From: Stutzerimonas zhaodongensis
GTDB taxonomy: Bacteria; Pseudomonadota; Gammaproteobacteria; Pseudomonadales; Pseudomonadaceae
Reading direction: 5' to 3'
Assembly (NCBI RefSeq): GCF_003696365.1
Contig: NZ_RFFM01000001.1
Coordinates: 372,001 to 436,000 of the forward strand
Length of the DNA: 64,000 bases
Every line of letters begins with the position of its first letter. The stretch's first letter is position 1. Under the pieces are notes generated by a model, which made no database searches, was not told where the DNA came from, and worked only from the letters and a program-made list of their open reading frames with translations. The translations under genes were made by a program, and so were the position numbers. This document shows, piece by piece, positions 26,954 through 30,175 of the stretch.

Positions 26954-28099
26954 ATGGAATTCGAGAAACTGTTGCGCCTGATGGTGGAAAAGGGCGGTTC
27001 GGACCTGTTCATTACGGCCGGCGTGCCGCCGTCTATGAAGGTCAACGGCAAGATCATGCCGGTGAACAAGACACCGATGTCGCCGGAAATGACCCGCGAA
27101 ACGGTGCACGCAGTGATGAACGAGCAGCAGCGTCGCGAGTTCACCGAAAACCACGAATGCAACTTTGCAATCAGTGCTCGGGGCATCGGCCGGTTTCGAG
27201 TCAGCGCCTTCTATCAGCGCAACCTTGCCGGGATGGTATTGCGCCGCATTGAAACCAACATCCCGACCCTTGAAGACCTGAAGCTGCCGGAGGTGCTCAA
27301 GAAACTGGCGATGACCAAGCGTGGGCTGGTGCTGTTCGTCGGCGCGACCGGTACGGGTAAGTCCACATCCCTGGCCGCAATGATCGGTTACCGCAACAAA
27401 AACTCCAGTGGCCACATCATCTCCATTGAAGACCCCATCGAGTTCATCCACCAGCATCAGAGCTGCATAGTCACTCAGCGTGAGGTTGGCATAGATACCG
27501 ACTCATTCGATGTAGCGCTAAAGAACACCTTGCGTCAGGCACCCGACGTGATCCTCATCGGTGAGGTGCGTACCCGCGAAACCATGGATTATGCGGTGGC
27601 GTTTGCCGAAACCGGACACCTGTGTCTGGCGACCCTGCATGCCAACAACGCGAACCAGGCGTTGGACCGCATCATCAACTTCTTCCCGGCCGACCGGCAT
27701 CAGCAAGTCTGGATGGATCTTTCACTTAACCTGAAGGCCATCGTTGCTCAACAGCTGATACCAACGCCGGACGGCAAGGGCCGTCGAGCGGTCATCGAGG
27801 TGCTGATCAACACGCCGCTGGCCGCCGACCTGATTCGCAAGGGCGAGGTGCACGAGCTGAAGTCGCTGATGAAGCGCTCCACCGATCTGGGCATGCAAAC
27901 GTTCGACCAGGCCCTGTACAACCTCTACGTACAAGGTGAAATCACTTATGAGGATGCCCTGGCGCATGCCGACTCCTCCAACGACCTACGCTTGATGATC
28001 AAGCTAGGCTCTGAAACCGACGGTGAGCACCTGACAAGCGTGTCTCAGGGCTTGACGCTTGAAGTCAGCGACGACGACAAGGGCCGCAGCTTCCGTTAA
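26954..28099 (+). CDS. pilU: Accessory pilus retraction ATPase PilU
   Basis: PilT-dependent secondary retraction motor. The product is 381 aa from MEFEKLLRLMVEKGGSDLF (26954); the open frame reaches back into pilT but those codons are not conserved. Walker A GATGTGKST (130-138), the Walker B segment APDVILIGEVRTRETMDYA, the His box FAETGHLCLATLHAN and an acidic tail (SDDDKGRSFR) are visible. It is co-directional with pilT. Its TAA stop overlaps the stop codon of the convergent TIGR03915-type gene, leaving no room for a terminator between them. Confidence 0.97.
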   Translation: MEFEKLLRLMVEKGGSDLFITAGVPPSMKVNGKIMPVNKTPMSPEMTRETVHAVMNEQQRREFTENHECNFAISARGIGRFRVSAFYQRNLAGMVLRRIETNIPTLEDLKLPEVLKKLAMTKRGLVLFVGATGTGKSTSLAAMIGYRNKNSSGHIISIEDPIEFIHQHQSCIVTQREVGIDTDSFDVALKNTLRQAPDVILIGEVRTRETMDYAVAFAETGHLCLATLHANNANQALDRIINFFPADRHQQVWMDLSLNLKAIVAQQLIPTPDGKGRRAVIEVLINTPLAADLIRKGEVHELKSLMKRSTDLGMQTFDQALYNLYVQGEITYEDALAHADSSNDLRLMIKLGSETDGEHLTSVSQGLTLEVSDDDKGRSFR

Positions 28100-28932
28100 T
28101 TGGTCTCTGATGAAGGTCGTCCGATGCGCTTCCCGGTCTTGCTGGCGACCCGTTCGGACTGACCGTCACGCTGCGCGCCAGCTCGGGCGCGGCTCATCAT
28201 CTGCGGGATTAGCAAGCCTTCGGGCAGGTTCTTCCAGAAGCGTACCGGCAAATTGCTTTCCATGACGCTGCGGTTCAAACGAGACGGATTGAACGTGTTC
28301 TCGTAATAGGTTTTCCAGAGATCCCCGCCAGGATCCTTGGCTTCTGATGCCAACTTCCGCCACTCGGGAGGACAGGGTCGCGCGTAATACAGCGCCTGCC
28401 CATCCCAGCAAACCCCATCGTCCGGTGTTGCTATCAGCCAGCGGTTATCGCCCATGCGCTCTGCGAAATGTTCCGCTGCCCATGGAAGCACGTCGTGCGC
28501 CGGCTCGAACCAAGCTACATGCTCCGGCCCATCACTGGCCCCAATCGGATTGAAACGAAGAAATGCGTGCAGATGATGAGCCTCACGGCGGACCGCCTTG
28601 ATCCGGCCATGTAGCTCACTGCCGTCGGCATCGCCCACCAATCTGGCCGTCGAATCGCCTTGGGACACCCTCCAGAGCACGCGATAGAGCAGGCTCCAGC
28701 GGTTCGCGACGCGGCAGCGAGCGGCCATCTCCAGCTCGTCGAGCAGTTGCCTGGGGACTCTTACCTGTTGTGAGGACTCGATGGGCCGGTCATGTGGCGG
28801 ATCATCGAATAAACCGGCCGATTCTTCGCTGCTCGCCCAATTCACCTCATGCGGAGGTACAAGCCCGAGGAGAAGCGCACGCGCGTGGCCCCTCCAGGCT
28901 TCAAAGCTTCCATCGAAGCGCACCGTGATCAT
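28096..28932 (-). CDS. TIGR03915-type putative DNA repair protein, without UDG domain
   Basis: A 278-aa protein, the partner of the radical-SAM gene. The start is the ATG at 28932 (MITVRFDGSFEAWRGHARALL), which overlaps the upstream stop as TGATG; earlier codons lie inside that gene. Typical elements are the N-terminal FDGSFEAWR, the central AVRREAHHLHAFLRF and WFEPAHDVLPWAAEHFAERMG, and the C-terminal TYYENTFNPSRLN and PVRFWKNLPEG. In many Pseudomonas, as I recall, this domain is fused to a uracil-DNA-glycosylase-like domain (TIGR03914). Here the protein stops about 30 residues after the TIGR03915 region, so that domain is missing. Biochemical function is unknown; a repair role is inferred from partners and the LexA box. 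Confidence 0.78.
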   Translation of the reverse strand: MITVRFDGSFEAWRGHARALLLGLVPPHEVNWASSEESAGLFDDPPHDRPIESSQQVRVPRQLLDELEMAARCRVANRWSLLYRVLWRVSQGDSTARLVGDADGSELHGRIKAVRREAHHLHAFLRFNPIGASDGPEHVAWFEPAHDVLPWAAEHFAERMGDNRWLIATPDDGVCWDGQALYYARPCPPEWRKLASEAKDPGGDLWKTYYENTFNPSRLNRSVMESNLPVRFWKNLPEGLLIPQMMSRARAGAQRDGQSERVASKTGKRIGRPSSETN

Positions 28933-30143
28933 CACCAAAGCGCCATTTGCGAGGACGTATCGCTCAAGTGGTGCCGCAACCTTGCAGATTCGTGGCCAGC
29001 CTGTGCTGGTCGATAATCCTGGGTAATGACGAACGGTTTGGCTTTTTCCAGGGCACAACGTAGGCGTGTCAGGTCTTCGAATCGAATTCGTTTCTGCCGA
29101 CGCAGATCAACCAGGCGCTTGGCACTGAGCATTCCAATCCCCGGGACTCGAGCGATCATTGCCGGCTCCGCACGGTTGAGGTCAACCGGGAACTGATCCC
29201 GATGAGTCAGCGCCCAGGCCAGCTTCGGGTCGATGTCCAGCGCCAGATTGCCTGGACCGCTAAGTAGCTCCCCTGCCTGAAAACCATATCCACGCATGAG
29301 GAAGTCCGCCTGATAAAGACGGTGTTCACGTAACAGCGGCGGCGCTTCGAAAGGAACTGTCTTGGGGCTGTGCGGGATCGGGCTGAAAGCCGAATAGTAG
29401 ACCCGACGCAATCGATAGCTTCCGTAGAGCGACTGCGCAGTGTGCAGAATGGTGCTGTCATCCGTGGTGTCGGCGCCCACGATCATTTGCGTGCTTTGGC
29501 CCGCCGGGGCGAAACGTGGTGCTCGCTTCTCAGCGGAGGCTTCGGTTTCGCCTTGATGAATGCTGTGCATGGCTTGTTTGATGGTCACGACCTGCTTTTC
29601 TGGTGCAAGTCGGATCAGGCTGGCTTCGGTCGGCAACTCGATATTGACGCTGAGCCGGTCGGCGTAGCGGCCTGCCTCGGCTATCAGCAGGGGGTCGGCA
29701 TCCGGAATGGTTTTGAGATGAATGTATCCGCGAAACTCATGATCCTCGCGCAAAAGCTTGGCTACACGAATCAACTGTTCCATGGTGTAGTCCGCCGAGC
29801 GGATGATTCCGGAGCTGAGGAACAGTCCGCTGATACAGTTACGACGGTAGAAGTCCAAGGTCAGTGTCACCACCTCTTCGGGTGTAAAGCGCGCCCGGGG
29901 TACATCACTGGACCGGCGATTGACGCAGTACTGGCAGTCGTACAAGCAGAAGTTGGTCAGCAGGACCTTGAGCAGCGAGACGCAGCGTCCATCAGGCGTG
30001 AAGCTGTGGCAGATGCCCATGCCGTCCGTTGCGCCAAGCCCGCTACGTCCCTTGGAGCTGCGCTTGGGTGCGCCACTGCTGGCGCACGAAACGTCATACT
30101 TGGCGGCGTCGGCAAGGACGCTGAGTTTCTCGATCAGTTGCAT
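28932..30143 (-). CDS. Putative DNA modification/repair radical SAM protein (TIGR03916 type)
   Basis: A 403-aa radical-SAM enzyme. The 4Fe-4S cysteines are C66, C70 and C73 in FCLYDCQYCVNRR. A C-terminal helix-hairpin-helix (ARVPGIGMLSAKRLVDLR, about residues 330-347) suggests DNA binding. The N-terminal SCASSG and GICHSFTPDGRCVSLLKVL motifs are family hallmarks. The start is the ATG at 30143 (MQLIEKLSVLADAAKYDV); a TTG three codons earlier is less likely. It is transcribed with the TIGR03915-type gene (stop and start overlap by 1 base) behind a LexA box 17 bp before the ATG. The similar P. aeruginosa gene PA0069 is, to my knowledge, in the SOS regulon. The substrate is unknown. Confidence 0.85.
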   Translation of the reverse strand: MQLIEKLSVLADAAKYDVSCASSGAPKRSSKGRSGLGATDGMGICHSFTPDGRCVSLLKVLLTNFCLYDCQYCVNRRSSDVPRARFTPEEVVTLTLDFYRRNCISGLFLSSGIIRSADYTMEQLIRVAKLLREDHEFRGYIHLKTIPDADPLLIAEAGRYADRLSVNIELPTEASLIRLAPEKQVVTIKQAMHSIHQGETEASAEKRAPRFAPAGQSTQMIVGADTTDDSTILHTAQSLYGSYRLRRVYYSAFSPIPHSPKTVPFEAPPLLREHRLYQADFLMRGYGFQAGELLSGPGNLALDIDPKLAWALTHRDQFPVDLNRAEPAMIARVPGIGMLSAKRLVDLRRQKRIRFEDLTRLRCALEKAKPFVITQDYRPAQAGHESARLRHHLSDTSSQMALW

Positions 30144-30159
30144 AGGAGTCAACGCGATA

Positions 30160-30175
30160 CTGTTTGCATATACAG
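30160..30175 (-). promoter_or_regulatory. LexA (SOS) box
   Basis: The 16-mer reads CTGTATATGCAAACAG on the minus strand: CTG-N10-CAG with an AT-rich centre, the gammaproteobacterial LexA pattern. It lies 16 bp upstream of the radical-SAM ATG and overlaps a -10-like TATATG, so bound LexA would block transcription. It predicts DNA-damage induction of the radical-SAM/TIGR03915 pair. Confidence 0.82.

Follow-up and report, generated by a model that had tools for sequence, protein, structure and literature searches.

A predicted LexA-controlled radical-SAM/DUF4130 gene pair without a uracil-DNA glycosylase domain in Stutzerimonas zhaodongensis and its relatives

A 64,000-nucleotide stretch of the Stutzerimonas zhaodongensis genome (contig NZ_RFFM01000001.1, positions 372,001 to 436,000; hereafter the window) contains two adjacent genes encoding a radical S-adenosylmethionine (SAM) protein and a DUF4130 partner from which the uracil-DNA glycosylase (UDG) domain of fused relatives, a member of the UdgX family, is absent. 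We found that the pair without this domain is the usual state in the bacterial family of this organism, is frequent in a sample of its phylum and is also present outside the phylum. The radical-SAM protein, the DUF4130 partner and a LexA-type box are kept in relatives that have an altered UDG domain, or none at all, in the same slot of the chromosome, and the UDG domain is unneeded for the retention of these three elements. The pair itself is a known and curated kind with unsolved biochemistry.

The radical-SAM gene (28932..30143, minus strand) encodes a protein of 403 amino acids, P0002, which matched TIGR03916 (rSAM_link_UDG) over residues 4-398 with 550.6 bits (E 2.6e-165; NCBIfam cut-off 343.5). 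Its partner gene (28096..28932, minus strand) shares base 28932 with it and encodes P0001, a protein of 278 amino acids that matched TIGR03915 (SAM_7_link_chp) with 197.9 bits (E 2.1e-58; NCBIfam cut-off 112.25) and Pfam DUF4130 with 127.9 bits (cut-off 27). An earlier sequence-only reading of the window had proposed both genes, their one-base overlap and both family assignments; the genes lie where it placed them, the scores are far above the cut-offs, and scores pointing to unrelated families were looked for and not found. It had also claimed that the partner ends after the TIGR03915 region. This was borne out as well, since a TIGR03914 (UdgX family) domain within 28096-28932 was sought by NCBIfam profile search and P0001 gave no match at E <= 1.

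The partner gene ends at 28096 and overlaps tail to tail by four bases with the convergent gene at 26954..28099 (plus strand, stop codon at 28097-28099), which by similarity we take to be pilU and which marks the chromosomal slot. A UDG remnant downstream of the partner was ruled out because the sequence there is pilU coding sequence. The same UDG-less form was found in 41 of the 46 genus members of the family set and, therefore, an assembly error was rejected. Replacement by a stand-alone UdgX elsewhere in the genome was also rejected, as no TIGR03914 gene over the cut-off of 189.95 was detected in it and the only match at E <= 10 scored 29.2 bits. The genome (G000) does encode Ung. It also encodes a stand-alone UDG-superfamily protein of 228 amino acids (match G000:C1:231474-231671, L001:1456-2142), with 57 bits to Pfam UDG; three NCBIfam UDG models also match it, each below its cut-off. 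TIGR03914 matches at E <= 0.001 were present in 36 of 41 genus genomes, nearly all of them weak and of this 228-amino-acid kind. As similar weak stand-alone matches coexist with a fused UDG-like domain in G024, G037, G039 and G040, the protein looks unlike a UdgX replacement.

The pair without UDG is by no means confined to this strain. Among 41 genus genomes, including that of the window, TIGR03915 was detected in 35 and TIGR03914 over its cut-off in 2, and among 248 family genomes the corresponding figures were 130 and 24. All 130 family TIGR03915 genes were read: 101 had no UDG match, 13 (all of genus g6) carried the motifs GEQPG and HPS, 11 carried GEQPG and HPA, and the UDG part of the other 5 had neither combination. 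These UDG classes (F, H, D and N) rest on motif patterns and tblastn (E <= 0.01) rather than on hidden Markov models; the 24 genes of classes F and H equal in number the 24 family genomes over the TIGR03914 cut-off. In a phylum sample of 299 genomes, the radical-SAM protein was over its cut-off in 52, and every one of these also had TIGR03915. TIGR03914 was over its cut-off in 39 of them, counted wherever in the genome it lay (on another contig in G434), and 13 were without it. Outside the phylum, the control genome of Bacteroides ihuae gave matches to TIGR03915 and TIGR03916 and none to TIGR03914. The sequence-only reading had stressed the missing domain as an anomaly, an emphasis which these counts show to be misplaced.

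A PilU-like gene was found in the same short stretch in 89 of the 130 family loci, namely 60 UDG-less, 13 with GEQPG and HPS, 11 with GEQPG and HPA, and 5 others; as the test accepted the best tblastn match over 40% identity, a PilT-like paralogue could be counted as PilU-like. Because this neighbour is common to all four UDG states, the UDG domain was likely lost in place. A tree of the radical-SAM and DUF4130 sequences (128 family rows plus 8 outside rows, 136 in all, thinned to 104; LG+G4, no mixture) placed the window in a mostly UDG-less clade of 70 rows, one of them with an altered UDG-like domain, which is sister to a mostly fused clade of 21 rows. A second UDG-less pair (G025, G029) lies inside the fused clade. 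Fused beta-proteobacterial rows fall outside both family clades with the UDG-less Salinicola between, and distant UDG-less rows (g13 and part of g5) stand at the root. On this tree the presence of UDG changes at least five times, four of these changes being forced by well-supported branches. Loss in place on more than one occasion is the simplest reading, such counts by themselves not separating gain from loss. This evidence for loss in place had been missed by the sequence-only reading.

The UDG-less copies remain under constraint. The ratio of nonsynonymous to synonymous substitution rates (dN/dS, Nei-Gojobori) between G000 and the UDG-less G019 was 0.030 for the radical-SAM protein and 0.078 for DUF4130, and the medians of UDG-less pairs were 0.127 and 0.29, respectively (medians from pairs with dS 0.15-1.6, genera g5, g13 and g16 left out). 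The UDG part of G091 gave a dN/dS of 0.92 against G079, nearly unconstrained in this one pair, as expected for decay, and it is apparently decaying.

Plain decay was also considered for the whole class of five genes with neither motif combination, and it was rejected, since G024 (L014), G136 (L244) and G237 (L240) have one conserved C-terminal UDG-like domain in common. It is 67-75% identical among the three and 29-41% identical to the other forms compared, and its dN/dS among them was 0.125-0.175. A search of 268 family genomes yielded a fourth copy in G548 (L269) with 64% identity, the next matches reaching at most 46%; the domain, with the pattern A[D/G]QPGARPFGG ... DHPSE[L/M]LWN, is present in 4 of 268. 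This altered domain keeps HPS but reads A[D/G]QPG in place of GEQPG, has His, Tyr or Phe where TNAVKHF has Asn, and carries Asn instead of the Arg that follows HPS; a KRR[I/L]H-like loop (R-loop) is missing. In the available text of the work on the UdgX of Mycobacterium smegmatis, the key residues are E52, Q53, N91, H109, H178 and R184 (PMC10359453). The altered sites were equated with E52, N91, H109 and R184 by motif position, without alignment of that protein, and because key residues are changed the altered domain is unlikely to be an active UdgX. The radical-SAM and DUF4130 sequences of G024 belong to the UDG-less clade (strongly supported, its exact place weakly so); G136 and G237 have theirs in the fused clade. 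As the cores lie in different clades, the altered domain would either be older than the UDG loss or have been exchanged.

Upstream of the pair, a LexA-type (SOS) box, CTGTTTGCATATACAG, occupies 30160..30175 (no strand assigned); it is separated by 16 bases from the radical-SAM start codon and starts 32 bases upstream of it. Within the 64 kb of the window alone the box pattern gave 1 match against a shuffle mean of 0.72, no more than chance. Over the whole genome, the stricter pattern CTGTATN6ACAG was matched 17 times over both strands, at 11 places, compared with a single match of the reversed control. The genes beside these places are lexA, recA, imuA, two S24/UmuD-type genes, yebG, topB, a DNA polymerase III alpha-type gene, a radical-SAM gene of the PA0069 family, the present pair and hemE, the last being probably a chance match. 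The PA0069-family gene (L187:1533-2594; 499.5 bits), a second radical-SAM gene of the genome, has its box 16 bases before the likely start, and its product is presumably nearer to spore photoproduct lyase (SplB).

Among the family orthologues, a CTG-N10-CAG box was present at -45..-20 in 127 of 130, in all UDG states, and started between -27 and -37. The three without it are all of genus g13, one of them with only 8 upstream bases at hand. In addition, we studied 80 named loci (the best 80 of 588 confirmed, biased to Pseudomonadota and counted by eye). In the loci L096-L124, CTG-N10-CAG was found within 160 bases upstream in 29 of 29; of the other 51, 2 had this box and 38 a GAAC/GTTC-N7 direct repeat, which we take to be the alpha-proteobacterial LexA motif. 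As the position of the box is steady in 127 of 130 orthologues and CTGTATN6ACAG is enriched over the genome, the SOS link suggested by the sequence-only reading is supported at the level of a conserved LexA-type box, and the pair is predicted to be under LexA control.

The radical-SAM protein carries the cysteines C66, C70 and C73 (CxxxCxxC; 29925..29948, minus strand), already pointed out by the sequence-only reading, and a second set consisting of C20, C45-H46 and C54 (29982..30086, minus strand), which that reading missed. None of these seven residues varies in the 128 family rows (the 130 minus 2 with a truncated radical-SAM protein) or in the 85 wider rows. The six invariant cysteines therefore suggest a second metal site, an auxiliary iron-sulfur (Fe-S) or zinc site, beside the SAM cluster. 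At its C-terminus the protein has a helix-hairpin-helix segment (residues 319-359; 29067..29189, minus strand). When its profile was compared with solved structures, the matches were helix-hairpin-helix segments, among them those of ComEA and RuvA, and a single radical-SAM protein, all weak (E 0.006-0.06); this best radical-SAM match, at E 0.023, was a biotin/thiamin-synthesis-associated protein that we take to be a HydG-type enzyme. In all 130 sequences of the DUF4130 partner, the residues D101, H119, R126, F127, F156, R159, W165, W206, Y209, R218 and P229 are unchanged.

From these data we propose that the radical-SAM and DUF4130 proteins, with an optional UdgX, together form a LexA-controlled enzyme that acts on DNA damage, a reading to which we give an even chance of being right. 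Once LexA is cleaved, the pair would act. The cysteines C66, C70 and C73 would hold the SAM-binding [4Fe-4S] cluster, C20, C45 and C54, possibly with H46, would hold the second metal site, and the C-terminal helix-hairpin-helix would bind DNA. The two proteins would then generate a 5'-deoxyadenosyl radical and abstract a hydrogen from a damaged nucleotide, which might be reversed or converted for other pathways, DUF4130 serving as the lesion-binding or active-site partner. Where fused, UdgX would be an accessory module capturing uracil or apurinic/apyrimidinic sites, outside the core reaction. More tentatively, and with somewhat less than an even chance, the pair could act on a DNA lesion by a radical reaction of a kind not yet described, with the second metal site at C20/C45/C54 and no glycosylase. 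UdgX would then be a dispensable targeting module, which in some relatives (G024, G136, G237, G548) would have become a conserved UDG-like domain without catalytic activity and in others would have been deleted in place.

Several observations weigh against this proposal. P0002 scored 28.9 bits with Pfam Radical_SAM, just under the gathering score of 29.5, and the helix-hairpin-helix, which the sequence-only reading had described correctly, matched HHH_3 with 24.6 bits, just under the gathering score of 27. The structure profile search linked DUF4130 to no solved protein with a significant E-value, and no solved spore photoproduct lyase was among the 10 matches of the radical-SAM profile at E <= 0.1. 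DUF4130 evolves faster than the radical-SAM protein, as seen in dN/dS, and pairs with an intact UdgX have lower median dN/dS (0.02 for the radical-SAM protein and 0.064 for DUF4130), at lower dS. Among the best 80 of the 588 named loci, 11 of the 51 after L124 had neither box pattern. In the same set 56 keep a UDG match, 21 are complete without it and 3 are undecidable; with 56 loci keeping it, the UDG domain clearly matters in many lineages. In one of these loci, L144, the partner frame ends after about 219 residues and a UDG match lies further on, a possible frameshift or split gene, and it was left out of the partner sequence set A3, for which 77 of 78 available sequences were used. Finally, TIGR03915 is present in G440, G457 and G524, all of genus g97, and no TIGR03916 match there reaches the cut-off, so the pairing is one-sided. 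TIGR03914 is over its cut-off in two of these three genomes.

Other explanations of the pair were weighed against the proposed DNA-damage enzyme. The substrate may be damaged RNA, nucleotides or protein, for example a DNA-protein crosslink, rather than chromosomal DNA. According to the available part of a study on Acinetobacter Tol5, drying at 8% humidity raises the expression of a radical-SAM gene with the same annotation along with that of rsr (PMC13130816), which is in line with this explanation; however, the helix-hairpin-helix segment, the LexA-type box and a fusion partner, UdgX, that acts on DNA make it unlikely. A little less probable still is base-excision repair centred on UDG, in which UdgX excises uracil with the assistance of the pair and the copy in the window is a remnant using another glycosylase of the genome. 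In the available text of PMC8565304, COG1573-COG4277 is presented as a system putatively serving base excision repair, and Ung and the 228-amino-acid protein would be at hand in this genome. However, in 101 of 130 family genes the domain is absent, and yet the radical-SAM protein and its partner are retained under constraint and the LexA-type box is kept; in addition, weak matches like the 228-amino-acid protein also stand beside fused UDG-like domains.

Direct reversal of an ultraviolet photoproduct, as by SplB, is to our mind just as improbable as excision repair centred on UDG. SplB is a radical-SAM protein acting on damaged DNA, and to our knowledge it has no DUF4130 partner. The LexA-type box, a radical-SAM protein with a helix-hairpin-helix segment and the association of DUF4130 with SplB-like radical-SAM proteins in the available text of PMC3765255 are in line with such a role. 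Both SplB and P0002 are radical-SAM proteins, but as no solved spore photoproduct lyase was matched at E <= 0.1, direct reversal gains no sequence support from this search; the best radical-SAM match was of the biotin/thiamin-synthesis-associated type, and the genome has a separate PA0069-family radical-SAM gene behind its own LexA-type box. Least probable of all is a DNA base modification (marking or hypermodification) instead of repair, which agrees with the NCBIfam label "putative DNA modification/repair" of the radical-SAM family and with the suggestion that associated enzymes might modify thymines (PMC3765255, available part) but not with the LexA-type box, since a constitutive mark is unexpected under LexA, nor with no PADLOC match, one weak PHROG match, a best "phage" hit in a bacterial-looking contig and only 2 loci on viral contigs.

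An association with phages was rejected. The two hits annotated as phage are Acinetobacter records, and one of them, CAKLQH020000003.1 (L093), labelled Acinetobacter phage, has the pair surrounded by aroE, glyS and glyQ and resembles a contig of a bacterial chromosome; 8 matches to fecal "Bacteriophage sp." contigs were left unjudged, the one examined carrying no annotation. A role as a defence system was likewise rejected, as there was no PADLOC match. The radical-SAM gene was also present on 158 plasmid records, with Phaeobacter (58) first, and on the Leisingera plasmid L095 it stands with a partner annotated as UdgX.

The closest known systems are the pairs of TIGR03916 with a fused TIGR03915-TIGR03914 protein, mostly of alpha- and beta-proteobacteria. 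They have the same families, gene order and close junction as the pair in the window and, in most of the best 80 of 588 named loci, a LexA-type motif upstream; their partner continues into UdgX, whereas that of the window ends after the DUF4130 region. Clostridium acetobutylicum belongs to another phylum than the organism of the window, Bacillota, and we take COG4277 to be the TIGR03916 family. In the C. acetobutylicum operon CAC3343-CAC3344, a radical-SAM protein of the same annotation accompanies a protein of unknown function and LexA control is predicted, a likeness drawn from the description in the available text (PMC3828012). LexA control of related operons is also predicted in Bacteroidetes, and the SOS-linked COG1573-COG4277 operon, combining a UDG-type COG with one taken as the radical-SAM family, is read there as a UDG-based excision repair system, unlike the reading proposed here (PMC8565304, available part). 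The UdgX of M. smegmatis is a relative of the C-terminal domain of fused family members (GEQPG, KRRIH, HPS), as far as the accessible text goes (PMC10359453), and the window protein has no counterpart of it. In 2013, DUF4130 was predicted to be a mutagenesis-related enzyme; it was described in association with SplB-like radical-SAM proteins and UDGs and linked to SOS and mutagenesis (PMC3765255, available part). The pair was put forward by the sequence-only reading as a candidate for an undescribed system, which goes too far: both families are curated and, in the available parts of these works, DUF4130 is discussed (PMC3765255) and LexA control is predicted (PMC3828012, PMC8565304). Its view that the chemistry is undetermined agrees with the open-licence literature searched, in which we found no biochemistry of the pair. 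Nor did we find the series of losses in place, the extra cysteines or the altered UDG-like domain in the accessible parts of this literature.

The window thus contains a compact form of the pair, with two short genes, no UDG domain and a clear LexA-type box. The extra invariant cysteines provide a concrete biochemical prediction. In addition, depending on the relative, the same pilU slot contains an intact, an altered, an apparently decaying or no UDG domain, and these natural variants can separate the core function of the pair from that of UdgX.

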